A program made the position numbers and the translations under genes. A model generated the notes under the pieces. That model had not been told where the DNA came from, searched no databases, and worked only from the letters and a program-made list of their open reading frames with translations. A DNA stretch of 39,333 nucleotides. Origin: Clostridia bacterium. GTDB lineage: Bacteria > Bacillota > Clostridia > Oscillospirales > CAG-272. This document shows positions 7,181 to 33,658 of the stretch, piece after piece. Position 1 is the first letter of the stretch; each line of letters begins with the position of its first letter. The stretch spans positions 1 to 39,333 of the forward strand of contig JAFTSB010000042.1 of NCBI GenBank assembly GCA_017461945.1. Direction: 5' to 3'.

Positions 7181-7562
7181 TCGATTTTATTATACCTACT
7201 CCGCCAAAGAGCAGGAGGAGATCAAGCGCATTCGGGAAAAGTATACCCACCGTGAGGAGGATAAGATGGCGCGCCTGCGCCGTCTGGATCAGAGCGTGAT
7301 GCAAAAAGCCCAGGCCGCATCCTTGATCTTAGGCATTTTGGGCGCCTTATTGCTGGGCTTTGGCATGAGCCTTGCCATGACCGATCTGGGCGCGGCAATG
7401 GGAATGGGCCGCGTGGCTGCGATGGTGATCGGCATTATCGTCGGTCTTGTGGGCTGTGCCCCCGTGGCCATGGCATATCCCATTTACCGCTTGGTGCTGG
7501 AAAAGGAGCGTGCCAAGGTGACCCCTGAGATCCTGCGCCTCACCGACGAGCTGCTGAAATGA
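7161..7562 (+). CDS. Small two-helix membrane protein (paralogue of the 3753 gene)
   Basis: This 133-residue protein has a charged N-terminal region (1-47, rich in E, K and R), two hydrophobic segments (about 50-75 and 80-102) and a basic tail ending PEILRLTDELLK. It aligns with the 3753 product through LGFGMSLAMTDLGAAMGM, YPIY and PEIL, so the locus contains two copies of the family flanking one two-component system. AAGGAG lies 8 nt before the start, inside the end of the preceding gene (20-nt overlap). It closes the operon before a strong terminator. Function unknown. Confidence 0.8.
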   Translation: MDNNQNNRFYYTYSAKEQEEIKRIREKYTHREEDKMARLRRLDQSVMQKAQAASLILGILGALLLGFGMSLAMTDLGAAMGMGRVAAMVIGIIVGLVGCAPVAMAYPIYRLVLEKERAKVTPEILRLTDELLK

Positions 7563-7566
7563 TCAA

Positions 7567-7601
7567 AGCACGGCGGCCACCATGTGGCCGCCGTGCTTTT
7601 T
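7567..7601 (+). terminator. Terminator of the two-component operon
   Basis: AGCACGGCGGCCAC, loop CAT, GTGGCCGCCGTGCT, then T5. The 14-bp stem is perfect. Confidence 0.92.
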
Positions 7602-7605
7602 ATGA

Positions 7606-7634
7606 TTGCAAAAACGCTGGCCGTGTGCTATAAT
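7606..7634 (+). promoter_or_regulatory. Promoter of the beta-helix gene
   Basis: TTGCAA (7606-7611), 17 bp, then TATAAT (7629-7634) preceded by TG-C (extended -10). The start near 7641 leaves an untranslated leader of about 130 nt before the gene at 7773. I see no riboswitch class in that leader. Confidence 0.7.
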
Positions 7635-7772
7635 GAATAGCGATATACTTTACAAACAGATCCAGCTGTCGCCAACGGACATTCTGGGCGAGCTTACCCT
7701 TTGTCGTTATAGCAATCTGTATACCAAAAAACAGTGACACGTGCATTGATTTTTGCGAAAAAGGAGAGAAAA

Positions 7773-8768
7773 ATGGAAACAAATAAGTGCTATACTCTGC
7801 AAAGCACGGGAGATAACCGAGATCGAAAGGCCGACATCGAGGCCTGCTTGGGTCGGTACAGCGCCTGCGTGCTGGGCCCCGGTAAATTTTATGTCAGTGG
7901 CATTGATATGCCCGATCACACCACCTTAACGGGTCTTGCCAGCGCTACACAGCTAATCCTGTTGCCCGAGATAGAGCATGGGTATACCGTGCGTATGGGC
8001 TCCTATTGCTGCGTGCAGGATCTGACCTTGCTTGGCGCCGAGGAGAAGATCGACCTGCCCGAGACAGTAGGGGAGCGCCACGGCATTTTGTATGAGGGTA
8101 CCGCCACCACCAAGGAGTGGATGGGCCCTGATCTCAAGCTGAATTCGGTGGTCCAGAATTGCCGTATCAGCGGTTATACAGGGGGTGGCCTTACCTGCCG
8201 CGACACCGGCTATTACGTGCGCGCCTCGCTGGCGGTTACAAACTGTCACATTGTCAACTGCGGCGCGGGCATCAACATTTCCCATTACAGCGAGTATCAC
8301 AAATTCACCAATATACAGTGTTGCGAAAACCGTTATGGATGCATCAACAATGGCGGAAACAACGTGTTTGTCAGCTGTGGCTTTGATGCTAACGTGACGG
8401 GCTTTGTGATCGATAACTCCACCGGGCAGTCGCCCAACAACTCCCACGGATCGGTCGTGGGGTGTACCTTCAACCACAACGACAACAATAAGGGAATCGG
8501 TATTCAGATCCTGAACGCCAAAAGCGGTTATGTGTTCACGGGCTGCCAGATGTTTTATTCCAAAATTGATATCGACAATTCTCCCGGCATCCTCTTCAAC
8601 GCCATGAACTTTGGCCGTGATACCGTGATTGCCGTGCGCGGTAAGGGGCTGGTGATGCTCACCGACTGCGTGTTCCACGGCGTGCCCGATACCGCCAATG
8701 TGGATCCCGATGCTCCCACAAAATTCCTCCATTGCTATACGCGCGATGGCGACGAAATCACGCTGTAA
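7773..8768 (+). CDS. Right-handed parallel beta-helix (pectate-lyase-like) protein
   Basis: This 331-residue protein has no signal peptide. After an N-terminal cap (GPGKFYVSGIDMPDHTTLTG) it consists of repeated 20-25-residue coils rich in N, G, C and hydrophobics (for example NCRISGYTGGGL, NCHIVNCGAGINIS, NNGGNNVFVSCGFD, GSVVGCTFNHNDNNKGIGIQ), the pattern of pectate-lyase-fold or tailspike-like beta-helices. No catalytic residues can be assigned. AAGGAG lies 6 nt before the start at 7773; an earlier in-frame ATG at 7734 has no ribosome binding site. It is monocistronic with its own promoter and terminator. Such proteins bind, cleave or epimerise polysaccharides, but the apparently cytoplasmic location makes the substrate unclear. 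Confidence 0.75.
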   Translation: METNKCYTLQSTGDNRDRKADIEACLGRYSACVLGPGKFYVSGIDMPDHTTLTGLASATQLILLPEIEHGYTVRMGSYCCVQDLTLLGAEEKIDLPETVGERHGILYEGTATTKEWMGPDLKLNSVVQNCRISGYTGGGLTCRDTGYYVRASLAVTNCHIVNCGAGINISHYSEYHKFTNIQCCENRYGCINNGGNNVFVSCGFDANVTGFVIDNSTGQSPNNSHGSVVGCTFNHNDNNKGIGIQILNAKSGYVFTGCQMFYSKIDIDNSPGILFNAMNFGRDTVIAVRGKGLVMLTDCVFHGVPDTANVDPDAPTKFLHCYTRDGDEITL

Positions 8769-8774
8769 GTGCAG

Positions 8775-8815
8775 AGAAAAAGCTTTTCCCGGCCGGGAAG
8801 GGCTTTTTCTTTTTC
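8775..8815 (+). terminator. Imperfect terminator after the beta-helix gene
   Basis: AGAAAAAGC (8775-8783) pairs with GCTTTTTCT around an inner TTCCC-GGCC-GGGAA stem, with unpaired bases between the two stems, followed by more T residues. Confidence 0.65.
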
Positions 8816-8864
8816 AAAAGATACCCAATATCGGCAAAATACACGCCTAACTTTGCGAAAAGTA

Positions 8865-8894
8865 TTGACAATATGTAACGAAATCATTTATAAT
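8865..8894 (+). promoter_or_regulatory. Promoter of the agmatinase-like / ParA-like operon
   Basis: TTGACA (8865-8870) and TATAAT (8889-8894) with an 18-bp spacer, in AT-rich sequence. Transcription would start near 8901, about 45 nt before the first gene. No later promoter or terminator is obvious until 15892, which supports one long transcript. Confidence 0.75.
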
Positions 8895-8945
8895 TTAATA
8901 AATATAACTATGTTTATATAAAAAACGACATGGAGGAAACGGACC

Positions 8946-9806
8946 ATGTGGAGAGGCCTTTTAACGGGCGACCGTGATAGCGCGCACGTTGCGGTGTTTG
9001 GCATTGCAAGCGATGCGAATTGCTCCATCGGCCGCGGTGCCGGTGAAGCACCCCGTGTGATGCGGGAATGCAGTGAATTTTTGCCCCCCGCCACCGCCGG
9101 CGGCACACCTTTGACACCCTGTATGTGGGATCTCGGTGATGTCAATGGCTATTGCTATGACGAGGTATTGGCAAAGCATACAGCCTGTGCGGATAAGCCC
9201 TTTACCCTGGTTTTGGGCGGCGACCATTCGGTAAGCATCCTTTCGCAAAAGGCCTATCGCAGTCTGCACTGGGGCCGGATCGGCATCATTCATGTGGATG
9301 CCCATGCCGATATCTGTGACAGCTATCAGAATTCCACCCAGTCTCACGCCTGTGTCAACCGCCGTGCCTTGGAAAACGGCTATGACCAGCAGGATATTGC
9401 CATGGTGGGTATCCGCTCTTACGAGCTGCAGGAGGTGGAATTCCTCAAGGATGCGGCGGTCAAGGTTTATGACGCCGATGCCGTCCGTGGGTTGGGTGCT
9501 GCCGCTGTGGTGGCCGAGCTGACCGAAAAATTCAAGGGCTATGACCGCATCTACCTCAGCTTTGATATTGACGCGGTGGATCCTGCTTATGCGCCGGGCA
9601 CCGGCACGCCGGAGCATTTCGGGCTCACCTCCTTGGAGGTGCGGACGCTGCTCACGGGCATTGTCCGGTCGTTGCCGGTTACGGTAATGGATGTGGTGGA
9701 GGTGGCGCCGCCGCTGGATCAGAACAACGTCACCACCTGGCTTGCGCTGAAATATATTTTGGAAATTTTAAATATCATCGATCAAAAGGAGAAACAGCAT
9801 GGCTAA
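8946..9806 (+). CDS. Ureohydrolase of the agmatinase/arginase family
   Basis: This 286-residue enzyme of the binuclear manganese ureohydrolase fold cleaves a guanidino group to urea (agmatine to putrescine, arginine to ornithine, or a relative). All metal-ligand motifs are present: GGDHS (about residue 90), DAHAD (about 117-121) and SFDIDAVDP with the GTGTPE loop (about 203-220), plus the conserved E in VVEVAPP. The substrate loop reads SHACVNRR rather than the common SHGTPFRR, so the exact substrate is uncertain. GGAGG precedes the start by about 8 nt. The stop lies 8 bases inside the next gene, tying it to the coiled-coil/ParA-like/SpeD-like operon; with the SpeD-like gene at the far end this gives two polyamine-type folds in one operon. 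Confidence 0.85.
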   Translation: MWRGLLTGDRDSAHVAVFGIASDANCSIGRGAGEAPRVMRECSEFLPPATAGGTPLTPCMWDLGDVNGYCYDEVLAKHTACADKPFTLVLGGDHSVSILSQKAYRSLHWGRIGIIHVDAHADICDSYQNSTQSHACVNRRALENGYDQQDIAMVGIRSYELQEVEFLKDAAVKVYDADAVRGLGAAAVVAELTEKFKGYDRIYLSFDIDAVDPAYAPGTGTPEHFGLTSLEVRTLLTGIVRSLPVTVMDVVEVAPPLDQNNVTTWLALKYILEILNIIDQKEKQHG

Positions 9807-11847
9807 CAAAAGAAGATTGCTGAACGGCTCGAAAGAAAAAACATTCTGGCTGTATCGCGATGCCAGCACCGTCGGTGCGGAAATGAAGCAGGATTTCCTG
9901 ACCTCCGAGCTCACCCTGGCCAAGCACGCGACCCGCTTTAAATTCAATTTGAGCGAGACCCAAAAGGAGGAGGGCATTCTGGGCCTTTCCTACGGTGTGT
10001 TCCTGCTTGCCACGCTGATGGATCGCTTTGAATTGAAAACTGCTTTTACGCAGAGCGAACAGAAAAAGCTGATCGGCTCCTTTGCCGAGCTGCTGCGCCA
10101 CGTCAAAGAACAGGGCTTTGATGTTTCTCCCTTTGCCAATGATCAGGTCAATGCACGCTTTTTTGGCTGGAACCGAAACCAATATTCCTTTATCGAGTCC
10201 TTGACCTGGACCATGTCCTGCTTCTTGTACGGCCGCCGGATGCACAATGCCGGCATGCTGACCTTTAGCGAGGAAATGCTAAATGAAATGACCGAATGGG
10301 TTGCCAGAAGCCTTGGCATCCTGGTGGACAATGTCATTCACAAAAACGGCGATCTGGGCTATAAGGAGGAATGTGACGATTACATCGGCTGGGGCCCCCT
10401 GACCGGCAACACCGAGGTCTCGCTCTATTTCACGCACTCGGTGTGTGAGACCTTTGGTGACGTAGAGGATACCATGCTGGGTAACATCGAGCTGCAGATC
10501 GCCGAGGACTGGCAGTATATCGATGAGATAGAAAAGGCCTATCAGCGCTTGTGTGAGGCAAGATTGTTCAAGACCAAGGCACCCCAAGTGGTAACCGCCT
10601 TTAAGCAGATCTGTATGAACGTGGGTAAAAACACCTACGAAAAATATGCCCCCCATCTGGGCAAGCGCTTCTTCTATGCCGACGGCTCTGCTGTGGAGAA
10701 TCTGGAGCAGATCTCCTATTCGATGCAGTCGCCCGTGTTGCTCAATCAGATCTACGCCGTGCTTTGCGTGGTTTACGTCAACTATCACACCCGTGTGCGC
10801 AAGCAAAAGGGCGAGGACGCCTATCGTGACCTGGGTGCCGCTTTGAAGAACGCCATTGATATGACCTATGAGGCTTATGTCGAGCTGCGCCGTCGTGGCA
10901 AGGAGCATCTGGTCAACCGTGAGTATGCCACCTTCTCCGAAACGCACCCCAACAAGGAGATCGGCAAGCGCCTTTCCGGCGAACGCATCAACGTGGCGGT
11001 GCTGGAGACCCTGATCATCAAGGCTAAGGCTATGATCATCACCTATGTATCCAAATATCCCGAAAAGGAGATCGGTGAGGTTTTGGATATCGTGGAGGAT
11101 ACCTGCTCCAATGACCGCTGGCTCTGGAGCGAGATGGGCTATGACCTGCAGCAGACCGAGCGTAGTATTTCGGCCATCCGTGAATTCTACGACTACTATG
11201 AAAAATATCAAAAGGCCAGTGCCGAAAACGATAATCAGGAGCTGCGCGAGTTGCGCGAGGATTACGAGCAGAAGTACCAGAACCTGATGAAAAACCTGGA
11301 GGATGCCGAGCGCAACCATAAGGAGCAGCTGGCAGCCTTGAAAAAGCAATACGCAGAGGAGACCAAGAAAAAGGTCGAGGGCGTGCGCGAGAGCTATAAG
11401 CTGGAGGGCGTTGTACGCGATATGATCGGCACGCAGGCCGCCGAGGTCTTTGCCGAGCAGCTGATCGGTGTACTGGGCCGCATTGCCCAGCACAATATCA
11501 CCGGCTCCGGCAAGCTGTCTGCCCACGATCAGCAGATCAAGGATGCCATTGGCGGCTTTGTCATGTCCTATCTGTTGGCCTATACCAGAAGTGCCAATAA
11601 CCCCGGTGCTGCCAATCAACATTGGGACGAGCATTTGGATGGCATCAGCGAAACCATGCAAAAGGATGCCGCCCGCTTTGCCATCGAGTGGCTTGGGCGT
11701 GTACTGGATCTGAACAGCTATAAGAGAGGGGATTTGGATATCCCCGTTCTGGAGACCGTTTTTGACAAAAAGCACGTGCAGGAGGCTACCTCCAGCCAAG
11801 CGAACACGGTCGGAGGCAACAGCGCCAATAACAACTTGAAAATGTAA
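9799..11847 (+). CDS. Large helical protein with coiled coil, unknown family
   Basis: This 682-residue protein does not match a family I recognise. Residues 1-450 look mostly alpha-helical and include aromatic/glycine patches such as DDYIGWGPLTGN (about 192-203) and GLSYGVFLLATL, loosely reminiscent of helical-toroid folds (weak impression). Residues about 465-540 are strongly charged heptad-like sequence (QELRELREDYEQKYQNL and onward), a clear coiled coil. A further helical domain follows (545-650), then a Ser/Asn-rich disordered tail. There is no signal peptide or membrane helix. AAAAGGAG precedes the start; the gene overlaps the ureohydrolase by 8 bases and ends 11 nt before the ParA-like ATPase. 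A scaffold or partner of that ATPase is the simplest inference. Confidence 0.75.
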   Translation: MANKRRLLNGSKEKTFWLYRDASTVGAEMKQDFLTSELTLAKHATRFKFNLSETQKEEGILGLSYGVFLLATLMDRFELKTAFTQSEQKKLIGSFAELLRHVKEQGFDVSPFANDQVNARFFGWNRNQYSFIESLTWTMSCFLYGRRMHNAGMLTFSEEMLNEMTEWVARSLGILVDNVIHKNGDLGYKEECDDYIGWGPLTGNTEVSLYFTHSVCETFGDVEDTMLGNIELQIAEDWQYIDEIEKAYQRLCEARLFKTKAPQVVTAFKQICMNVGKNTYEKYAPHLGKRFFYADGSAVENLEQISYSMQSPVLLNQIYAVLCVVYVNYHTRVRKQKGEDAYRDLGAALKNAIDMTYEAYVELRRRGKEHLVNREYATFSETHPNKEIGKRLSGERINVAVLETLIIKAKAMIITYVSKYPEKEIGEVLDIVEDTCSNDRWLWSEMGYDLQQTERSISAIREFYDYYEKYQKASAENDNQELRELREDYEQKYQNLMKNLEDAERNHKEQLAALKKQYAEETKKKVEGVRESYKLEGVVRDMIGTQAAEVFAEQLIGVLGRIAQHNITGSGKLSAHDQQIKDAIGGFVMSYLLAYTRSANNPGAANQHWDEHLDGISETMQKDAARFAIEWLGRVLDLNSYKRGDLDIPVLETVFDKKHVQEATSSQANTVGGNSANNNLKM

Positions 11848-11858
11848 GGAGTAAGACA

Positions 11859-12734
11859 ATGATCACGGTTTCTTTTCATTCCTATAAGGGCGGCTCTTGC
11901 CGTACCTCTACCTGCTTTAATACCTTGCCTTTTCTGGCCAGAAAGCTGAACGCTTCCAGCGTTTCCCCCTTGCTTGTTATCGACGCCGACCTGGAAAGCC
12001 AGGGCCTGACCTATCTGTTCCGCGCCGAGGAGGATTTCCGTTATCATAAGCTGTATGATGCCAAGGAGCTGTTCAGCAGCAAAAAGATGCCCAAGGATTT
12101 CCGTGAGGCTTGCTTGCCTGTTGGTGATAAGCTGGGCTTGGAAAAGGAAAGCGTTTATTTCCTGGGTGTCAACGATATGAAAACCTTCGTGGCGCAGAAC
12201 AAGGGTGGCCAAGTGGATGAGGCGCTCAACGAGCTGACCGACCGCGGCTTTTGCGGCATCGTTTACGACACGGCCTCCGGCGACCAGTTCTCGGCCGGTG
12301 CCACCAATAAGAACTCCGATGTGCTGGTGTGCTGCATGCGCCCCACCACCCAGTTCACCACCGGTACCTTCAGCTTCTTGGACCGTATCAGCAAGGAATG
12401 GATCACCCAGGGCGGTATGCAGGTCAGACGCGTGATCGTGCTGCCCACCGCCGTTCCCCGCGAGCAGACGCTGATCGACGGCAAGGACCAGCACAAGGCC
12501 GCGCTGGAAAAGATCGTTGGCAACTGCATGGATGTAAATTTTGAGATCAATCAGGCCTTTATGCACCAGGAGTGCTTTGGTATTCCCGAGGTGGCGCGCT
12601 TTAAGTGGTGCGAGGATGTGCTGTTCCGTCTGGATCTGGAGGATAAGCTCATTTCGGAGCAGGATGCACAGCTGGCCCTGACTCGCTATGAAAAGCTGGC
12701 GGATACCATCATTGAAGAAGGAGAGCAGGTGTGA
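11859..12734 (+). CDS. ParA/MinD-like P-loop ATPase with arginine in the Walker A motif
   Basis: This 291-residue protein of the SIMIBI ParA/MinD class has a deviant Walker A (residues 9-18, YKGGSCRTST). It keeps the signature lysine K10 of KGG but has R15 where the phosphate-binding lysine normally lies. The A' motif LLVIDADLESQGLT and the Walker B-like IVYDTASGD are clear. KGG-x-x-R variants exist in other ParA-like families, so the domain may bind nucleotide with altered or absent hydrolysis. There is no HTH and no plasmid-partition partner nearby, so chromosome or plasmid segregation is unlikely; a switch for assembly of the neighbouring large proteins is more plausible (inference). AAGGAG precedes the start; its stop overlaps the next start. 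Confidence 0.85.
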   Translation: MITVSFHSYKGGSCRTSTCFNTLPFLARKLNASSVSPLLVIDADLESQGLTYLFRAEEDFRYHKLYDAKELFSSKKMPKDFREACLPVGDKLGLEKESVYFLGVNDMKTFVAQNKGGQVDEALNELTDRGFCGIVYDTASGDQFSAGATNKNSDVLVCCMRPTTQFTTGTFSFLDRISKEWITQGGMQVRRVIVLPTAVPREQTLIDGKDQHKAALEKIVGNCMDVNFEINQAFMHQECFGIPEVARFKWCEDVLFRLDLEDKLISEQDAQLALTRYEKLADTIIEEGEQV

Positions 12735-15088
12735 TGATGCAAACACCCAATCAGCCACAGCCCCCCGTCAGAGATTTTTATACTCTGACCATGGAAAATA
12801 TACCGGATCCTACGCTGCGCCGGTATATTTTCGGCATAGCCAACCCCAAGCGCAATAACATTCTCAATGTGCTGATCTCTGCCATGAACAATATGATGCT
12901 CATGTCGTTTTTCAGCCTGTTCGCCATTTGGAAGGAATGCCGTTGCGACATTCGCCGTATGGAGGATGGAGAGGGCGAGGAGCAGCGCTCGGCAGTGCAT
13001 GCCAAGCGTGTCAACGATGTGATGGAAAAGATCTATTGCAACAATATTCTTACGCAAGAGACCATTTCCTTTGTTTTTACCGAGATCTTGTTGGAGGCAC
13101 GCAAAAACCCCGACACGCCCTTTGGCCCCTATATCAAGGGCACCGTCACCGGCTCTAAATTTTCCAAGATCGCAGAGATCATTCGCGTGTGGAAGATCAG
13201 CTATCAGAGATCGGAGAAAAATAACGATCTGCTGGTGTCGCTGTATCAGGAGCTGTTGGAATCCCTCAGCATTCTCAAGTACATGAAGCTGGAGGATGAG
13301 GACGGCCATCTGATCTGCACCATTACCGCCCCCGATGGCACGGGTCTGGAGGCAGATCTGTCTCTGTTTGTCAAGCGCATCGAGGTGGAGGGCTCGGAGG
13401 ATAAGTACTATCTGTATAAGGCCGACCATCGCCGCGGCCGTGTGTATCTGGAGTATATGAACTTTGGTGGCAGCACCATCTATAAAGATGAGGAGGATGA
13501 GAGCGGTCAATTTGTTATTGATCGCGAAACCTTTCTGGCGCTGACGTGCAATCGCTTTGAGCGTGGCAAGCAGGATGACCTCTCCATGAGCCTGCAGATC
13601 AACGATTTCAAGTATATCCATCGCCTTGCCCTTTGCATTTCCGATGTACTGGGCGCCGGCACCAAGCGTGATTTGTTGGATCGCATCAACGAAAAGGATG
13701 TGTACCGCGATAACTTCCGCAATAAGGATATTGAGGAGATCAACTGGGATAACACGCTGGTGATGCTGATGCTAGAGGATGGTCCCAGCGAGATCATTGA
13801 AACGGTGCTGCGCAGCGATATCAACGCCTTTGAAAACATCTTAAAGAGCGTAATGGTGCGCTTTTTGTCCCGCAATGTGGAGATCACCGGCGAGGACGGC
13901 GCGGCCAAGCCGATCACCTATAAGGATCTCAAAAATGAGTACCTGCGCCGCGAACGGCTGGAGCTGGCCTATCAGGAGGTTATGCAAAGCGGTATTTCCC
14001 GCAATCGCAAGGTGCGCACCTGGATCAAGAACGCCCGCATCTTTTTGATGTCGCAGTTCATCATTTCCAAGGTGGCCGAGACCGAGGTGAAAAACGAGGC
14101 TTTCTATGCCGAAAGCATTACCATGAAGCTGCAAAAGATCAACTCGGCCATTGAGAAAAACGGATCGGTCGCCTCTCTCAGCATGATCAACAAAACCCTG
14201 GAGCGTGTGTTCCGCACGTTGATTTTGTTCTATAACGGTATTGTGGAATATGCTAAGGCCCGAGAGGAAAAGCTGAGTCAGTACGGCCTGAACGAGCGTC
14301 ACCGCGAGGGTGTGCTTAAGGAGATTCAGGAGGCCAGCGAGGATGCTTTCTTTACCTACGTTAAGGAGCGTCTGGCGCAAAAGCACACCGTTGATGGCAG
14401 ACCGCCCATCAAAAAGGCATCGCTTGGTATTCTGATCGAGGAGTTCTGTGAGCTCTGCCGCAAGATGGATTCCTCCCGCGGCAAGGCGACCACCTATAAC
14501 GAGGACGGCATGCTGCTGCATTCGGTGATCGGGCGCAGAAAGATCTGTGATCTTTCGATCTTCCGCAAAATCACCGAGCATAGCGCCACCGAGTCCGATT
14601 TCCAAGGCGTGACAAATCCGCCCTTGACTTTGACCGCGTTCTTTAACAAGGTCCTCAAGCACGATGATCCCACTGTCAATGTTGACGACCCCAAGATCAT
14701 CTATAACTACATCAACTACATCAAGGATCTGTTCGAGTTCCTGAATCTCAACGACGATTTCAAAAACAAGAACAGACTGCCGGTGCAAAACATCTTCGAC
14801 CCCATCTTCCCCTATGTGGTGCGGTATAGCGAACGCAACGAAAATCGTGACCGTTGCAGCGTTTGTCAGTACATCATCAATACCGACGGTGGCTTTGAGG
14901 ATACCAAGATCAAGATGCTGACCGAATACGACTATGTGATGAACGAGCTGTATTATTGCATTCCCAATGCTGAATCCTCCACCAAAAACTGGTGGGTTTC
15001 CCCCTTGCTGATCAGCTGCAGACGCTTTGACGAGCTGCTGCTGGAGCGAGGCAACGGCGATGGGGATGACGGCGCAGGCGAGGAGTAA
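12734..15088 (+). CDS. Large protein of unknown family in the ParA-like operon
   Basis: This 784-residue protein is largely alpha-helical by composition, with acidic and basic stretches. A hydrophobic segment at about residues 43-67 (NVLISAMNNMMLMSFFSLFA and onward) might be a buried helix or a membrane segment. A beta-rich region spans about 180-260, and one CSVC pair lies near residue 706 (RDRCSVCQYI). The C-terminus is Gly/Asp/Glu-rich. No nuclease, protease or kinase motif is evident. Start choice is uncertain: GTG 12731, ATG 12734 and ATG 12737 are all in frame, with AAGGAG at 12718-12723; 12734 overlaps the ParA-like stop by one base. Only three bases separate it from the SpeD-like gene, so a functional complex is likely but unproven. 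Confidence 0.75.
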   Translation: MMQTPNQPQPPVRDFYTLTMENIPDPTLRRYIFGIANPKRNNILNVLISAMNNMMLMSFFSLFAIWKECRCDIRRMEDGEGEEQRSAVHAKRVNDVMEKIYCNNILTQETISFVFTEILLEARKNPDTPFGPYIKGTVTGSKFSKIAEIIRVWKISYQRSEKNNDLLVSLYQELLESLSILKYMKLEDEDGHLICTITAPDGTGLEADLSLFVKRIEVEGSEDKYYLYKADHRRGRVYLEYMNFGGSTIYKDEEDESGQFVIDRETFLALTCNRFERGKQDDLSMSLQINDFKYIHRLALCISDVLGAGTKRDLLDRINEKDVYRDNFRNKDIEEINWDNTLVMLMLEDGPSEIIETVLRSDINAFENILKSVMVRFLSRNVEITGEDGAAKPITYKDLKNEYLRRERLELAYQEVMQSGISRNRKVRTWIKNARIFLMSQFIISKVAETEVKNEAFYAESITMKLQKINSAIEKNGSVASLSMINKTLERVFRTLILFYNGIVEYAKAREEKLSQYGLNERHREGVLKEIQEASEDAFFTYVKERLAQKHTVDGRPPIKKASLGILIEEFCELCRKMDSSRGKATTYNEDGMLLHSVIGRRKICDLSIFRKITEHSATESDFQGVTNPPLTLTAFFNKVLKHDDPTVNVDDPKIIYNYINYIKDLFEFLNLNDDFKNKNRLPVQNIFDPIFPYVVRYSERNENRDRCSVCQYIINTDGGFEDTKIKMLTEYDYVMNELYYCIPNAESSTKNWWVSPLLISCRRFDELLLERGNGDGDDGAGEE

Positions 15089-15091
15089 GTC

Positions 15092-15889
15092 ATGAAGCAT
15101 ATGATGATGGATTGCTATGGGGCAATCAACTTCAAGCTGGATGATATGACCGGCATTTACGACCTGCTCAACGGCATTGCGCATCACGCCAAGCTGCAGC
15201 CGGTGGCACCCCCTACCCTGATTCCGTACTACTATTGCGAGGATAAGGACGACGTGGGCATCAGTGCATATCTCTTTTTAAAGGGTGGACACATTACCAT
15301 TCACACCTTCTCCAAGCGAGAATGTTATTTTGTGGATATCATGTCCGATAGCTTTTTCAATGCGGAAATGGTCTACAATTATCTGGAGGTCCATTTGCCC
15401 TTTAATAAGAGCATTTCCAATTACTGTGTCAGCGATCGCCGCATCACCGAGCACAGCAGCGAGACTGTGACCGAGGACGATTTCGGCCCCCATCTGGTGG
15501 GACGCCTGCGCCCCCGTGAGCCCTTGACGCTGGACCGCGCTTTCCACGCGCTGGAGCGCTTGGTAGAGGCCGCTAATATGACCCCTATTTGCCGTGCAGC
15601 CGTGATCAAGGATAGCTCTCGCGATCCGCACTTTGTGCAAGGGATCATCGTCATTGCTCAAAGTCACATTTCGCTGTACTACGATATCGAAAACGACGTG
15701 CTGTATTTTGACCTGTTCTCCTGCGCCTATTTTGATTTCAGCCGGGTAGAGCAGATCCTCACCGATATGTTTGGTGAAAGTGAGAGTATGCAGCTGGTCA
15801 AGCGCGGCGACAAATACGTCATCAGCCGCAGCGACGATATCGATGCTTCCATTTCCTATATCAGCGGCAAATGGCAGCAAAATATCTGA
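15092..15889 (+). CDS. Tandem AdoMet-decarboxylase-like (SpeD-like) protein with split catalytic residues
   Basis: This 265-residue protein is two fused S-adenosylmethionine-decarboxylase-like domains. Domain 1 (about 1-105) has GGHITIHTF and FVDIMSD where SpeD has SESHLTIHSF and IDVYTCG: the pyruvoyl-forming serine is G66 and the catalytic cysteine is D86, while H67 and H71 remain. Domain 2 (about 145-240) has IIVIAQSHISLYYD and YFDLFSCAY: S191, H192 and C211 are kept, but the processing histidine is Y196. In known SpeD the serine self-cleaves to a pyruvoyl cofactor; whether that happens here is doubtful. The SpeD family assignment rests on pattern alignment by eye. It is the last gene of the operon that begins with an agmatinase-family gene, so a polyamine- or SAM-sensing role is possible. 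Confidence 0.7.
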   Translation: MKHMMMDCYGAINFKLDDMTGIYDLLNGIAHHAKLQPVAPPTLIPYYYCEDKDDVGISAYLFLKGGHITIHTFSKRECYFVDIMSDSFFNAEMVYNYLEVHLPFNKSISNYCVSDRRITEHSSETVTEDDFGPHLVGRLRPREPLTLDRAFHALERLVEAANMTPICRAAVIKDSSRDPHFVQGIIVIAQSHISLYYDIENDVLYFDLFSCAYFDFSRVEQILTDMFGESESMQLVKRGDKYVISRSDDIDASISYISGKWQQNI

Positions 15890-15891
15890 TA

Positions 15892-15932
15892 AAACAAAAA
15901 GGGCGCCTGCAAGGCAGGCACCCTTTTTGTTT
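15892..15932 (+). terminator. Bidirectional terminator between convergent operons
   Basis: AAAAAGGG and GCCTGC pair with GCAGGC and CCCTTTTT around loop AAG, with one mismatch between the two stem parts. A-tracts and T-tracts flank both sides, so it can end the SpeD-like operon and the convergent 529-residue gene. Confidence 0.85.
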
Positions 15933-17521
15933 TAAAAATACAGATACGGTTTGCGATTTTTATGGTTTTTGCGCATCTCTTTCATAAAAGCGCGCACCTT
16001 TTTTCGGCGCGTCTTGTCGTCCTCTACCTGGCCGTCGTTCTCCTCCAGATACAGGGCCTCGCTTAAAACTTTGATCTCATCCCATTGCTTTTTGATGTTG
16101 GTGATGACTGCGAACAAAGGCGAGATCACGGCAACTACCAGAATAAAGAAGGGAACCGACCAGATCTCCAAGGGGTGACCGAAAAAGCGTTCGATCAGCG
16201 TCCAGGAGTTGTTGAACAGCGTGATCTCAGCCACGATGGTGCCAAACAGAGAGACAAAGATCTCAGTCCAAGCAGCCTTGCGCTTTTTCAGCTTGGTTTC
16301 GCGCTGCTTGATGCGCTCTACGTAGGTGTTGCAGATGGTGGTCAGATTTTTGATCTCTTGGGTGAAGTTGTTGTAAAGATCATTGATGGCAAAGGTTTTT
16401 TGCAGTAGGTCATAATACTCGTTGACGTGAATCACCGTGGAAGGGTATTTGAAAAAGGCGCGGAATTTCAAATTGACGGCATTTTCCTCGCAAGTGCGCG
16501 CACGGCGCAGCTGTTCGTGCATGATGGCATAGTCCTTCCCCAGCTTGTCCAGGTGACCGATCTCCCCCATGGTCCGTGCAATGGCGTGGCGCTGGTGGAT
16601 CACGTTCAGGAACAAAAAGTAGTATACGTCCTTGGTTTTTTGATAAAACTGACCCTTGAAAAAGGCGTTTGTGGTCTCGTTTTCAGTGAGGTAGCTGATG
16701 TTGGAAGCCCCGTTGAGCGAGGCCGTCCAATAGGAGTTTTCAAAGGGGTGCAGGGTATCCACCTTGGTGCAGGAGGCATCGTACAGATAGGTCTCCTTAT
16801 AGTTTTTGTTCAGGTGGAACAGCAGATCGCCGATGTTATCCGGCTTATCACTCAGCAGCAGATAGGAATAGACCAGGGGTTTTTCCCTGTCATAGGAGAA
16901 GGCGACATATTGCTGGGGGTCTTCTGCCGGGACCAGCTCCCCGTCCTTGCGGTCAAAGCAGATCTGCTGCAGAATCCGATCGATCAGCTCCTTTACCGAA
17001 AATTCGTGAGGGGTCCAAGTGGCCTGCTTGGTTTCTGCATCCCAACTTTTTTCTTGTAAAGCAAAATGATTTTTCTTGCTCTTGATCTCACCGATGTAGT
17101 AATTGAGTGTGGAGAACATTTCGATGGACGTGCTGCTGTAAGCGCATTCCAGCTCTAAAAAGCCCACCTGGGATTCAAACAAATACAGCTTGATGTTGGT
17201 GATGGCCACCTGCTGAGGGGCCACATCGGCCTGCCTTGGGTGAAATTCCAGCGTGTCCTCCGGGTGAGGGGGGAGATGTATGTATTTGCGGTAATCCACG
17301 TTTAGTTGCAGGCATCGGGCGATCTGAGCGGAGCAACCGCTGTTACTCAAAAGATCTGCCAACCCCTCGCGCAAGGACTCGTTGCCTTGGGCAAAGGGCG
17401 TAAACAGAGGCAGGGGCTTGTTCTTTTTGCTTTGGATCTTTGCCTGCTCGGGTAGCAGAGCCTCAGGAACAAAGGTGAAGGGGAAAATGAATTTTGTGTA
17501 CTGCTTGACGATATCAGCCAT
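15932..17521 (-). CDS. CorA-shaped membrane protein of unknown family
   Basis: This 529-residue protein has a large soluble N-terminal part (1-350), a long helical/coiled segment (about 350-415, ending in basic RETKLKKRKAAW), two transmembrane helices (about 419-436 and 454-474) and a basic cytoplasmic tail. The order resembles CorA-type channels, but the GMN loop that defines CorA is absent between the helices (the loop reads NNSWTLIERFFGHP), so Mg2+ transport should not be assumed. GGGAGGAA lies 7 nt before the start. It is convergent with the ParA-like operon and shares its terminator region; the beta-propeller gene lies 51 nt upstream and is probably co-transcribed. A membrane partner of the neighbouring system is a hypothesis only. 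Confidence 0.7.
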   Translation of the reverse strand: MADIVKQYTKFIFPFTFVPEALLPEQAKIQSKKNKPLPLFTPFAQGNESLREGLADLLSNSGCSAQIARCLQLNVDYRKYIHLPPHPEDTLEFHPRQADVAPQQVAITNIKLYLFESQVGFLELECAYSSTSIEMFSTLNYYIGEIKSKKNHFALQEKSWDAETKQATWTPHEFSVKELIDRILQQICFDRKDGELVPAEDPQQYVAFSYDREKPLVYSYLLLSDKPDNIGDLLFHLNKNYKETYLYDASCTKVDTLHPFENSYWTASLNGASNISYLTENETTNAFFKGQFYQKTKDVYYFLFLNVIHQRHAIARTMGEIGHLDKLGKDYAIMHEQLRRARTCEENAVNLKFRAFFKYPSTVIHVNEYYDLLQKTFAINDLYNNFTQEIKNLTTICNTYVERIKQRETKLKKRKAAWTEIFVSLFGTIVAEITLFNNSWTLIERFFGHPLEIWSVPFFILVVAVISPLFAVITNIKKQWDEIKVLSEALYLEENDGQVEDDKTRRKKVRAFMKEMRKNHKNRKPYLYF

Positions 17522-17572
17522 TGCATATTCCTCCCAAACGATATTTGAAATATAAAAATGATGGGATCGAGA

Positions 17573-18649
17573 TTACTCGGTGATTTCCTCAAAGCCGAGG
17601 GGAGCTGCGCCGGTGTAACGGTAAAGGTGGGCTTCACTGAGGTACGTGGTCTTCAGCCCTTTGATCGAGCCGGGGTGTGAGAAATAAAAGCGTCCGTCAC
17701 CCAGCGAATGGATGCCCGTGGAGCCCAGAGGAAAGCGGAAGCCGCGCACGCCACTTGGCTCGTGCACAAGTCCCACGTCGGCCATTTTCAGCAGCCAGCC
17801 CAGCTCACCGCCAAGGCCCTTCAATTCGCTCATAGTGGGGGCCGCGGAGCCGTCGATCACGTACATCGGATAGTTGGGGTACTGGGGCTTTTCGCCCTTG
17901 TAAACGCATACAAACCAGTTGCCTGTATAGGCATCGTAGCACAGATTCTGCACGCCCCAGGTGGTGTTGCCCGTAAAGAAGAAGCAGATCTTATCAGGGT
18001 GCAGGCCGCTGTGGTGGGGGTGACTTTGGAAAAGGGGCTGCGCCACGGCAGAGAAGGTGCGCCAATCATAGCAAAGCAGCATCTGATGGTCGTTATCCTC
18101 GCGGTTTACGTCGCCGTAATTGCCACAGCATACCATCAGCTGGGTGGGGGAATCCTTCGGCGCGCCGAAATCGGGGCCAAAGGATAAGCCGTCAATGCCG
18201 CTGCAGGCGTATTTGTGGGGCTTGCCGTCGTGGCTGACTCCTTCATAGTATTCGGTGATCTCGGGCAGGTAAACGGCCGTCATCACGCCGTCCTTTTCGG
18301 CATCCATATCCACACGGTCGATCTTATCCACGTCAAAAATAGAAATGTAAAAGGCGTTTTCCACGGGCACGCCCTCCAGGCCTGCATTTTTGAAAATGCC
18401 TTGACCGATCACGTCATTTTTGAACTCCAGCGAGCCGTATACACGTCCGTCCTCTTTGTTAAAGTCGATGCAGCCAAGGTGCCCTACCAGGCCTTTCACG
18501 GTGCCGATGAGGTTGCCAAGCAGGTCGGTTTTGACCAGAACGGTGGTAAAGGAAAAATAGGCATAGCCCTTTTCGGTGTCAATGGCAATGCCCTGGACAT
18601 GACCGTTTTTCCAACGGCCGCCGTCGATCATAAGGGGGAGCTTGCTCAT
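17573..18649 (-). CDS. Probable cytoplasmic beta-propeller protein
   Basis: This 358-residue protein has no signal peptide. Repeated segments of the type HVQGIAIDTEKGYAYFSF, GHLGCIDFNKEDGRVYGSL, NLCYDAYTGNWFVCVY and STGIHSLGDGRFYFSHPG fit the blades of a six- or seven-bladed propeller of the NHL/PQQ-like kind. Conserved His-rich patches (SHPHHSGLHPDK) may be functional. The frame is open further upstream, but ATG 18649 has AAAGGAGA at a proper distance and lies just downstream of the promoter at 18690. No catalytic family is recognised. It probably forms a transcript with the downstream 529-residue gene, since no terminator is seen between them. Confidence 0.7.
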   Translation of the reverse strand: MSKLPLMIDGGRWKNGHVQGIAIDTEKGYAYFSFTTVLVKTDLLGNLIGTVKGLVGHLGCIDFNKEDGRVYGSLEFKNDVIGQGIFKNAGLEGVPVENAFYISIFDVDKIDRVDMDAEKDGVMTAVYLPEITEYYEGVSHDGKPHKYACSGIDGLSFGPDFGAPKDSPTQLMVCCGNYGDVNREDNDHQMLLCYDWRTFSAVAQPLFQSHPHHSGLHPDKICFFFTGNTTWGVQNLCYDAYTGNWFVCVYKGEKPQYPNYPMYVIDGSAAPTMSELKGLGGELGWLLKMADVGLVHEPSGVRGFRFPLGSTGIHSLGDGRFYFSHPGSIKGLKTTYLSEAHLYRYTGAAPLGFEEITE

Positions 18650-18689
18650 GGGGAAATCTCCTTTCGGGATATGGTAAGGATTTGATATC

Positions 18690-18718
18690 ATTATAGCAAG
18701 CGTATGGCGAAAAAGCAA
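18690..18718 (-). promoter_or_regulatory. Promoter of the beta-propeller gene
   Basis: On the minus strand TTGCTT (18713-18718), 17 bp, TATAAT (18690-18695), with TG-C ahead of the -10. Confidence 0.75.
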
Positions 18719-18730
18719 GTGGGGAACGCT

Positions 18731-18764
18731 AAAAAAGTCCGTGGCGACCATGCCGCCACGGACT
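18731..18764 (-). terminator. Terminator of the DUF378 gene
   Basis: On the minus strand AGTCCGTGGCG pairs with CGCCACGGACT around a short loop and is followed by T6. Confidence 0.85.
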
Positions 18765-18786
18765 CTCGGCTTCTCGCGTACGCGCT

Positions 18787-18999
18787 TTAAGCCTCGTCTC
18801 GTACCTCGTCGGGGCGAAACAGCAGCGAAATGCACCATACTCCCGCAAGACCGACAACGGTATAGATAATGCGTGCCATCAGCGTATCCATGCCGCCGCT
18901 GATCCAAGCCACCAGGTCAAATTGAAACAGACCGATCGCCCCCCAGTTCAGGGCACCGATGATGGTCAGGATCAAAGCAATTCTATCCATAATTCTCAT
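18787..18999 (-). CDS. DUF378 family small membrane protein
   Basis: This 70-residue protein has two hydrophobic helices (about 6-25 and 38-60) and the DUF378 hallmarks LTIIGALNWGAIGLFQFDLV and ARIIYTVVGLAGVW. The family is widespread in Firmicutes and has no established biochemical function. The start at 18999 (MRIMDRIAL) follows GAGGTGAAGG; an ATG 30 bases upstream is in frame but lacks a site. It is divergent from the nucleotidyltransferase gene and is a single-gene unit with its own terminator. Confidence 0.9.
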   Translation of the reverse strand: MRIMDRIALILTIIGALNWGAIGLFQFDLVAWISGGMDTLMARIIYTVVGLAGVWCISLLFRPDEVRDEA

Positions 19000-19120
19000 G
19001 GCCTTCACCTCACTTTCAAGACCGCGCAAAAATCAAAAGCGGCGATCTTCAACATTAGTTTGGCTCATTGCACCGGATGCAAACAAGGAAAAATTTGTGC
19101 AACGGCTGTTGCGTGTGTGC

Positions 19121-19149
19121 TTTACAGATGTTCCAAAATGTGGTATACT
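19121..19149 (+). promoter_or_regulatory. Promoter of the nucleotidyltransferase operon
   Basis: TTTACA (19121-19126), 17 bp, TATACT (19144-19149) with TG-G before it (extended -10). It should drive the four closely coupled genes up to 22516. Confidence 0.75.
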
Positions 19150-19177
19150 AATAAAAATGATGAAAGGGGGCACCGCT

Positions 19178-20395
19178 ATGGAGTCGCAAATCGTATGCCG
19201 AATTCCGTCTTATGTAAAAGCTGTAACCGATGCACTGCAAAAAGCGGGGCACCGTGGGTATCTGGTGGGGGGCAGTCTGCGCGATCTGCTTCTTGGCAAA
19301 ACGCCCCACGACTATGATCTTACCACCGATGCCACCCCCGACGAGATGTTGGAGATCTTTTCGGCCTTTCGCACCATTCCAACGGGACTGAAGCACGGCA
19401 CTCTGACCGTGATGTCTGAGGGGAATCCCATTGAGGTCACCACCCATCGGGTGGATGGGGATTATCTGGATAGCCGCCGCCCGGAAAGCGTTTCCTTTAC
19501 CCGCCGCTTGGAGGAGGATCTTTCCAGACGGGATTTCACCGTTAACGCCATGGCGTGGAACCAGGAGCTGGGACTGGTGGATCTGTTCGGTGGCCGTGAC
19601 GATCTGCAACGGGGCGTGATCCGCGCGGTGGGCAACCCCGTGGCGCGGTTTACCGAGGATGCGTTGCGCATTCTGCGCGCCTTTCGGTTTTCGGCACAGT
19701 TGAATTTTGCCATTGATCCCGATACCCTTGCCGCCGCAGGCTTGCAACGGGAGGGACTTTCTAAAATTTCGGCCGAACGTGTTTTTTCAGAAATCAAACG
19801 ACTGCTGGTGGCCCCCGCCGCCGCGCGAGGGTTAGCGGCTCTTTGCGAGTCGGGCTGTGAGCGTGAGGTGTTCCACGGTCTGCCTTTGCGCCACGAGCTG
19901 TTTGAAAGGCTGGAGGCACTCCCACCCGAGGCTGCGCTGCGCTTGGCGCTGCTGCTGTGTGATCACACCCCTGCCAAGGCAGAGGCGCTGTGCCGCGCCT
20001 GGCGCACCTCGAACGTCTTTTGCGACAGCGTAACCGACTTTTTGGCGGCATTTTCTGCCGATCTCCCCCATACATCCTATGAGGCGCGGCGGCACGTCTG
20101 CAGCTTTTGGAAGGGGTGGGAAGGCGCCATGCAGCTGCGCACCGCCTTGGGACAGAATGTGGAGGAATGTCGTAAAATCTGCCATACGGTTGCCAAAAAC
20201 GGCACCGCTGTGGAGATCAAGCGCCTTGCCGTGAATGGCCGAGAGCTGCAAACGCAGCTGGGGGTCGCCCCACGCGACACGGGCACATTGTTGCTGCAGC
20301 TGCAGGATCTGGTCTGGCAAGACCCTGCCCGAAACAAAAAAGCGGTCCTGCTGGAGCTGGCCCGCGCGATCCTGAATAAGGAGATGAGTGTATGA
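19178..20395 (+). CDS. cca: tRNA nucleotidyltransferase / poly(A) polymerase family (CCA-adding enzyme)
   Basis: This 405-residue class II nucleotidyltransferase has GGSLRDLLLG (31-40), metal-binding D45-x-D47 (HDYDLTTDA), the VTTHRVDGDY element, RRDFTVNAMA (motif B) and the EDALRILRAFRFSAQL nucleotide-recognition helix, followed by a helical C-terminal part. It adds or repairs the CCA end of tRNAs; in some Bacillota the work is split between CC- and A-adding proteins, so the exact specificity is unresolved. The start at 19178 follows AAAGGGGG; a much longer in-frame opening upstream crosses the promoter and is not used. It overlaps the hydrolase start by four bases. Both tRNAs in this window already encode CCA, so repair is the likely main duty for them. 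Confidence 0.93.
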   Translation: MESQIVCRIPSYVKAVTDALQKAGHRGYLVGGSLRDLLLGKTPHDYDLTTDATPDEMLEIFSAFRTIPTGLKHGTLTVMSEGNPIEVTTHRVDGDYLDSRRPESVSFTRRLEEDLSRRDFTVNAMAWNQELGLVDLFGGRDDLQRGVIRAVGNPVARFTEDALRILRAFRFSAQLNFAIDPDTLAAAGLQREGLSKISAERVFSEIKRLLVAPAAARGLAALCESGCEREVFHGLPLRHELFERLEALPPEAALRLALLLCDHTPAKAEALCRAWRTSNVFCDSVTDFLAAFSADLPHTSYEARRHVCSFWKGWEGAMQLRTALGQNVEECRKICHTVAKNGTAVEIKRLAVNGRELQTQLGVAPRDTGTLLLQLQDLVWQDPARNKKAVLLELARAILNKEMSV

Positions 20396-33507: not shown

Positions 33508-33581
33508 TGGAGACGAGGGGGCTCGAACCCATGACCTCACGGATGTGAACCGTGCGCTCTGACCAACTGAGCTACGCCTCC
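33505..33581 (-). tRNA. tRNA-Val(CAC)
   Basis: A 77-nt cloverleaf on the minus strand. GGAGGCG pairs with CGTCTCC (one G-T pair) in the acceptor stem, AGCTCAGTTGGTCAGAGC forms the D arm, CACGG-TTCACAT-CCGTG the anticodon arm (anticodon CAC) and GGGTTCGAGCCCC-like the T arm. The CCA end is encoded. Confidence 0.92.
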
Positions 33582-33582
33582 A

Positions 33583-33658
33583 TGGTCGGAATGACAGGAT
33601 TTGAACCTGCGACATCCTGGTCCCAAACCAGGCGCGCTACCAACTGCGCTACATCCCG
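33583..33658 (-). tRNA. tRNA-Pro(TGG)
   Basis: A 76-nt cloverleaf on the minus strand, starting CGGGATGTAGCGCAG with the CGGG start typical of proline tRNAs. The anticodon arm is CCTGG-TTTGGGA-CCAGG (anticodon TGG), the T arm GCAGGTTCAAATCCTGT, and CCA is encoded. It lies one base upstream of tRNA-Val and is co-transcribed with it. A ProX-type prolyl-tRNA editing gene is found 0.8 kb away. Confidence 0.95.

Follow-up and report, generated by a model that had tools for sequence, protein, structure and literature searches.

The window analysed here, which is the whole 39,333 nucleotide (nt) stretch of contig JAFTSB010000042.1 from a Clostridia bacterium, contains at 8946-17521 a set of six genes that we read, with a probability of about 0.5, as a horizontally spreading, agmatine-linked conflict cassette, probably anti-phage and of the abortive type. 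The gene set, its order, the substitutions of one gene for another, the conservation of key residues and the scattered distribution were observed directly in 15 loci from 14 genomes, the window included (one genome, G1079, holds two loci, of which one is cut by a contig end; loci are given L numbers and genomes G numbers). All 15 loci combine core proteins with an effector. In 12 it is a TIR gene or domain, in the other three a CorA-like protein with two transmembrane (TM) segments. A conflict system was one of several options in an original prediction made for this DNA and is the one favoured here. The strongest argument for the involvement of agmatine is contextual, in that two unrelated decarboxylases appear in one role and two unrelated agmatine enzymes appear in the first slot of the cassette.

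The cassette and its relatives

The features of the window locus are listed below.

8865-8894, + strand: sigma-70 type promoter, TTGACA-18-TATAAT, 12/12 match
8946-9806, + strand: ureohydrolase, predicted agmatinase, 286 amino acids (aa), Pfam PF00491
9799-11847, + strand: core protein 1 (CC682), 682 aa, predicted (alpha/alpha)6 toroid at ~13-470, then a long coiled coil
11859-12734, + strand: core protein 2, KGGxGR-type ParA/MinD-like ATPase, 291 aa, NF047398, P-loop KGGSCRT
12731-15088, + strand: core protein 3 (P785), 785 aa from GTG, 784 from ATG at 12734
15092-15889, + strand: SpeD2, tandem SpeD protein, 265 aa, AdoMet_dc PF02675
15892-15932, both strands: terminator between the converging SpeD2 and CorA-like genes, stem 15905-15919 on +, 15916-15904 on -
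15932-17521, - strand: CorA-like protein, predicted effector (PADLOC CorA models, hydropathy scan)

The five open reading frames (ORFs) at 8946-15889 are tightly coupled, with successive junctions that overlap by 8 nt, leave a gap of 11 nt, overlap by 4 nt and leave a gap of 3 nt. This reproduces the coordinates and overlaps given for them originally, and Pfam agrees (PF00491, PF02675) that an agmatinase-family enzyme comes first and a double AdoMet_dc-like protein last. The promoter, which had also been predicted, is the sole 12/12 match within 8700-19000, where six promoter-like sites were found and 8.6 expected. The stem of the predicted terminator was found as well and can be read on the opposite strand also; terminator-like sites in the region overall are not above chance (13 found versus 10.6 expected, standard deviation 3.3). 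The restriction of the unit to five genes did not hold. In L013 and L038 a homologue of the CorA-like protein lies directly 3' of SpeD2 and in the same orientation, and the unit therefore extends to 17521. Across the 15 loci the top promoter-like site within 250 nt of the first cassette gene matches at 9-12 of 12 positions in a scan made without a shuffle control, and in L013 and L017 the best such site is merely 14-16 nt from the start of that gene.

The layouts of the cassette are as follows.

Window: agmatinase-CC-ATPase-P785-SpeD2, then CorA-like on the opposite strand
L013, L038: agmatine deiminase-CC-ATPase-P785-SpeD2-CorA-like, all on one strand
L008, L039, L040: TIR protein (591-599 residues)-agmatine deiminase-CC-ATPase-short P785 (230-239 residues)-SpeD2
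L014, L017, L041, L042, L043: TIR-CC-ATPase-P785-SpeD2
L044: TIR-CC-ATPase, then contig end
L018: TIR-CC-ATPase-P785 fused to GNAT, without SpeD2
L015, L016: CC-long ATPase-P785 homologue with inserted TIR-165 residue CxxCxxCC protein-Orn/Lys/Arg decarboxylase

CC and the ATPase are thus common to every locus, and P785 or its short form is present in all 14 that are not cut off, 13 of which also have a decarboxylase gene. Eleven of the 15 loci retain the order CC-ATPase-P785 (or short form)-SpeD2, a recurrence that suggests more than a chance arrangement. The predicted conservation of a five-gene order stands for these four genes; with an agmatine enzyme in front it is found in only six of 15 loci, three of them with the short P785. 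The slot before the core holds an agmatinase in the window only, an agmatine deiminase in five loci, a TIR gene in seven and neither in two.

Searches for the ATPase detected it in 5 of 295 genomes of the window's family and, with a profile, in 11 of 395, the window's own genome included (the two draws overlap). An order-level search with P785 gave 3 of 394 genomes and a class-level search 2 of 391, in both cases including the window's own; the other class-level match is remote. The families of G408 and G552 yielded one of nine and one of 197 genomes respectively, each being the named genome itself. L008 is contig JAFQAQ010000002.1 from a Clostridia metagenome-assembled genome of goat caecum.

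The cassette appears to spread horizontally, its gene trees being discordant with taxonomy and its occurrence scattered (11/395). In the trees of both the ATPase and CC, G408, which belongs to another taxonomic family, nests within a clade formed by the window's family. Of the two most distant copies, one belongs to G281, which shares the window's genus, and the genus g23 by itself is represented in three distinct clades. The L013 and L038 copies are close together yet come from different genera. The 395-genome survey lists 20 genomes from the window's genus, and 2 of them have the cassette. The transfer RNA (tRNA) nucleotidyltransferase gene to the right of it (18959-20395) was found in 17 other genomes of the genus, and at the six such loci read no cassette gene lies beside it, in an ORF set that included the other cassette ORFs but in which the ATPase ORF was masked by one on the opposite strand. 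The neighbour at 17573-18907 is also present beside the tRNA nucleotidyltransferase gene in L096 and L099, which places the right border of the cassette at 17521/17573.

None of the three middle proteins of the window reaches a Pfam or NCBIfam family cut-off, in agreement with the original view that the two large ones have no recognised family. CC682 had been described as a coiled-coil protein; a coiled coil is indeed predicted, but the main part of the protein (residues ~13-470) is predicted to be an (alpha/alpha)6 toroid with the coiled coil behind it. The window ATPase matches NCBIfam NF047398, a KGGVGR-motif variant AAA ATPase model, at 3.3e-10 and 40.6 bits, which is below the cut-off of 90, and all eight ATPase members scanned match this model. 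K10, G11, G12, R15, D42 and D44 are invariant across eight aligned sequences. The canonical KGGxGK[ST] is absent, with the lysine of GK[ST] replaced by Arg in all eight. This upholds the prediction that the ATPase is not of partition type, although three of the eight still match NF041546 ParA_partition (best 9.5e-6). P785 has a TIR domain inserted in two relatives (L015 and L016) and a GNAT domain fused to it in one (L018), and its short form was linked to it via L039 (2.8e-7 against the window P785 alone), through which L008 and L040 join. The GNAT acetyltransferase, which forms the C end of the P785 homologue at L018:6186-9074, may have an amine as its substrate; SpeD2 is absent from that locus. 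The homologue at L038:7444-9660 is split (7444-7830 and 8014-9660) and represents either an assembly error or a decayed gene.

A Glu is conserved at one site in 12 of the 12 TIRs, at the position that we take to be that of the NADase residue. A hydropathy scan of the CorA-like protein detected hydrophobic stretches at 418-436 and 456-474, near its C end. Two PADLOC CorA models, which we presume to have been derived from type III CRISPR loci, match it, PDLC01043 at 282-466 (1.6e-8) and PDLC01175 at 35-172 (0.0034); among the three CorA-like members one matches the former and two the latter. The window protein is 48% identical to the L013 copy and 52% identical to that of L038. A profile of the three found no match in 253 other genomes drawn from the family; since the L013 and L038 genomes would have matched, the draw cannot have included them.

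Other genes were observed in and around these loci. A 164-165 residue CxxCxxCC-type protein lies between the TIR-bearing P785 homologue and the decarboxylase (L015:6176-6673 and L016:11063-11557). An SPFH/Band-7 domain fused to a further TIR domain is encoded ~640 bases behind SpeD2 at L040:13790-14986, a Radical SAM gene and a PPDK-N/PEP-utilizer gene are immediately 3' of SpeD2 on the same strand at L043:13364-16538, and directly behind SpeD2, again on the same strand, L039:3684-8101 has two genes (733 and 738 aa) with three hydrophobic stretches each and no Pfam family. In the window itself 7734-8768 encodes a 344 residue protein with no family above cut-off and is followed by a terminator-like hairpin (8783-8801) right before the cassette promoter, and two tRNA genes are on the minus strand at 33508-33658.

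Agmatine-type enzymes and the tandem SpeD protein

The agmatine-acting enzymes are so called by family name. The window ureohydrolase (Arginase PF00491, E 5.5e-64) is a predicted agmatinase. The best of five NCBIfam models that it matched is TIGR01230 agmatinase (154 bits, below the cut-off of 174.3) and its nearest solved chain is the guanidinobutyrase 3nio, in alignment with which the arginase-fold motifs GGDH, DAHAD (DxHxD) and DID (DxD), presumably the Mn-ligand motifs, are kept. The same slot is occupied in five loci by the unrelated agmatine deiminase, in which the Cys of GGGxxHC is kept in five of five. Behind the core, L015 and L016 lack SpeD2 and have instead a pyridoxal phosphate (PLP) decarboxylase (PF01276) in which the Lys of SxHK is kept. 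This enzyme shares 56-57% identity with the product of a G552 gene and only 27-28% with that of the PF01276 gene in the window's genome. In G552 the gene belongs to a SpeD-SpeA-SpeE-SpeB-like operon, where it lies between an AdoMet_dc gene and a full PF01564 gene and is followed by an arginase-family gene (31% identical to the window ureohydrolase over 208 residues, 2.4e-22). A PF01276 gene is found somewhere in 12 of 13 of these genomes, so that the operon enzyme is not simply the only decarboxylase they have. The polyamine theme of the original prediction is thus retained, with an agmatinase or deiminase before the core and SpeD2 or a SpeA-type decarboxylase after it.

SpeD2 of the window matches AdoMet_dc (PF02675, E 6e-21) in two stretches. 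In the S-adenosylmethionine decarboxylase (AdoMetDC) of T. maritima, Ser63, His68 and Cys83 are essential for self-processing (PMC10407285). The corresponding residues were placed by ungapped distance in 11 SpeD2 sequences. In the C-half Ser and Cys are present in all 11 and His in 10. The N-half is degenerate, with Gly for Ser in eight of the 11, His kept in all and the Cys site occupied by Asp in 10 and by Asn in one (G66, H71 and D86 in the window). SpeD2 is the only AdoMet_dc gene found in the ten SpeD2 genomes searched, six of which are 72-86% complete, and a full-length match to spermidine synthase (PF01564) was found in none of these ten; the one genome with such a match is G552, where SpeD2 is absent and a separate SpeD is present. 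The presence of SpeD without spermidine synthase has been used to find arginine and ornithine decarboxylases, and SpeD-SpeDC fusions have been reported (PMC10407285).

Profiles of the SpeD2 N- and C-halves score 66.7 and 84.7 bits against speH_1 of Microcystis phage MaAM05, a gene that adjoins a second, canonical SpeD, speE and speB. Against that second SpeD they score 27.4 and 26.9 bits, and against the AdoMetDC of phage S-PM2, the activity of which has been validated (PMC9992855), 33.2 and 24.3 bits. By these scores SpeD2 appears to be far from validated AdoMetDC and near putative phage and viral SpeDs. It is probably a pyruvoyl-type arginine or ornithine decarboxylase, the choice of arginine over ornithine resting on the company of neighbouring genes only. 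The two SpeD genes, speE and speB of MaAM05 lie in a row (L102, MW495066.1 246749-250084), and speH_1 is itself a candidate pyruvoyl arginine decarboxylase.

Proposed function and its alternatives

From this arrangement we infer a role in defence, the substrates of the enzymes, the gating and the direction of the signal. The core, consisting of a toroid/coiled-coil scaffold, the KGGxGR ATPase and P785, would be a sensor-gate that detects an invader and controls one effector, either a TIR, acting through destruction of NAD+, or, in the window, the CorA-like membrane protein, acting through membrane permeabilisation. SpeD2 or the SpeA-type decarboxylase would convert arginine to agmatine and feed it around the core, and agmatinase or agmatine deiminase would drain it, making the hydrolase an off-switch. 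Most likely the level of agmatine (or the drain on arginine) in or near the complex would set the threshold of the effector, and the effector would be released when the agmatine balance is upset or when the core is triggered directly. That the window has a consensus promoter suggests production of the components in advance, with their activity kept in check. It is possible, and is proposed only tentatively, that agmatine or a conjugate of it is the immune signal itself, written by the decarboxylase and erased by the agmatinase or deiminase, with the core releasing a TIR NADase or a CorA-like pore.

Several observations weigh against an agmatine-linked defence cassette. The cassettes of nine of the 15 loci lack an agmatine-consuming enzyme, and that of L018 lacks a decarboxylase. 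The C-half of the window SpeD2 reads S191, Y196 and C211, with Tyr in place of the catalytic His that is present in the other 10, so that the Ser/His/Cys set of class 1b AdoMetDC, complete in the C-half of these 10 relatives, is incomplete in the window; this copy may be weak or may have been turned into a binding subunit. Partial PF01564 matches occur in five of the ten SpeD2 genomes (E 3.8e-8 to 8.2e-4) and three of the five exceed the family cut-off, that of the window's genome among them; these are presumed to be other Rossmann proteins. Four single-domain viral SpeDs (L067, L069, L071 and L077) score 54.8-62.6 and 77.5-85.5 bits with the SpeD2 half profiles, about equal to speH_1, and the stretches of these viral contigs that were searched gave no homologue of speE, agmatinase or deiminase. 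The similarity of the effector to CorA is weak. Comparison of the window cassette with PADLOC gave weak, partial or coiled-coil matches only and no described defence system was recognised, in a scan of the window proteins. The flanks scanned by Pfam, which on the relatives was applied to the cassette genes and chosen neighbours, are mostly ordinary-looking.

The degeneracy of SpeD2 (the loss of Cys from the N-half throughout, Gly for Ser in most copies and the Tyr for His in the window C-half) could mean that SpeD2 and the ureohydrolase are ligand-binding pseudo-enzymes, subunits with a regulatory or structural part through which a conflict system senses arginine, agmatine or polyamines and for which agmatine need not be made. 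This is unlikely given the near-complete conservation of the C-half residues and the intact motifs of the ureohydrolase, and the exchange of SpeD2 for a PLP enzyme with an intact Lys points to a reaction and not a fold. At the other extreme, an arginase-family gene together with SpeD would suit an operon for polyamine supply (arginine to agmatine to putrescine) that simply has unrelated genes as its neighbours, and some genomes with anomalous speD also encode speB or aguA/aguB (PMC10407285). However, three large non-metabolic core genes with a TIR or CorA-like gene in every locus, nine loci that have TIR and no agmatine-consuming enzyme, and the scattered distribution make such an operon quite improbable.

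An assembly or spatial apparatus unrelated to immunity, with TIR only as an adaptor, could be imagined from a ParA/MinD-like ATPase, a coiled coil and a toroid scaffold. The invariant TIR Glu, the swapping of TIR for a two-TM CorA-like protein and the patchy, tree-discordant distribution all argue against it, and we regard it as decidedly improbable. Signalling linked to S-adenosylmethionine (SAM), in which SpeD2 has SAM or one of its conjugates as substrate and the CorA-like protein responds to that compound in the way that the CorA of type III CRISPR responds to SAM-AMP, draws on the adjacency of the CorA-like gene to that of an AdoMet_dc-fold protein and on reports that the CRISPR CorA binds SAM-AMP and that SAM lyase can degrade it (PMC10600005). 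Of the 11 loci with SpeD2, however, eight pair it with TIR; two other loci have a SpeA-type decarboxylase in its place, and the other partner enzymes are agmatine-type. SAM-linked sensing had been raised in the original prediction; with SpeD2 halves far from validated AdoMetDC and no full-length spermidine synthase it is now very unlikely.

Significance and comparison with known systems

If an agmatine-linked role in defence is correct, agmatine or polyamine chemistry would be a control point of prokaryotic immunity beside nucleotides, and tandem SpeD proteins, by default named SAM decarboxylases, would act outside spermidine synthesis. We know of no defence pathway in which the signal is an amino-acid-derived amine, and an agmatine signal, if true, would be the first of this kind in place of a nucleotide. 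Three protein families for which we found no name would also acquire functions that can be tested, and the cassette provides a further example of a single core on which TIR and CorA-like proteins replace each other. Should defence prove not to be the role, the swapping of unrelated agmatine-type enzymes at the same places of a cassette still needs explaining.

No described system with this gene set was found in the open-access literature or in the PADLOC, Pfam, NCBIfam and PDB comparisons, and within that scope the operon is, as originally predicted, an undescribed one. Thoeris and other TIR-effector systems resemble most cassette relatives in having TIR as a swappable module; the core proteins and polyamine enzymes of the cassette are not part of them. 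The window copy differs further, as no TIR or Thoeris match was obtained among seven window proteins in PADLOC, with no search for ThsA made among the relatives. The NTP-dependent conflict systems of Kaur et al. (2020) are likewise multi-gene and have MinD/ParA-like and TIR domains, but the available text (PMC7159879) does not contain 'polyamine', 'agmatin', 'arginase' or 'AdoMet', and the cassette has no MoxR or vWA match. The type III CRISPR CorA module also places a two-TM CorA-like protein beside a small-molecule enzyme (PMC10600005). There, however, the enzymes are a SAM-AMP synthase and an eraser whereas here they are agmatine-type, and the sequence similarity is weak; no Cas gene was recognised among the window genes in general scans, with no dedicated search made for Cas10/Cmr or a CRISPR array.

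The anomalous SpeDs (SpeDA/SpeDC) and SpeD-SpeDC fusions are like SpeD2 in having tandem domains and no full-length SpeE match, and in keeping company with SpeB or AguA-type enzymes (PMC10407285). The V. vadensis fusion is degenerate in its C-half (PMC10407285), SpeD2 in its N-half and within a TIR/CorA cassette. PspA operons similarly tie AdoMet decarboxylase and other polyamine genes to a membrane-stress system; as far as the accessible text goes (PMC11237479), they have PspA, band-7 and CesT/Tir chaperones in place of a toroid-ATPase-P785 core and agmatine enzymes. Model NF047398, although matched by each of the eight cassette ATPases scanned, names only a domain. It can be stated with moderate confidence that the cassette is new at the system level, no tested system family fitting it (type III CRISPR lies outside those tested). 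Its effector layer is of a known kind, and its core and agmatine module are, to our knowledge, new.

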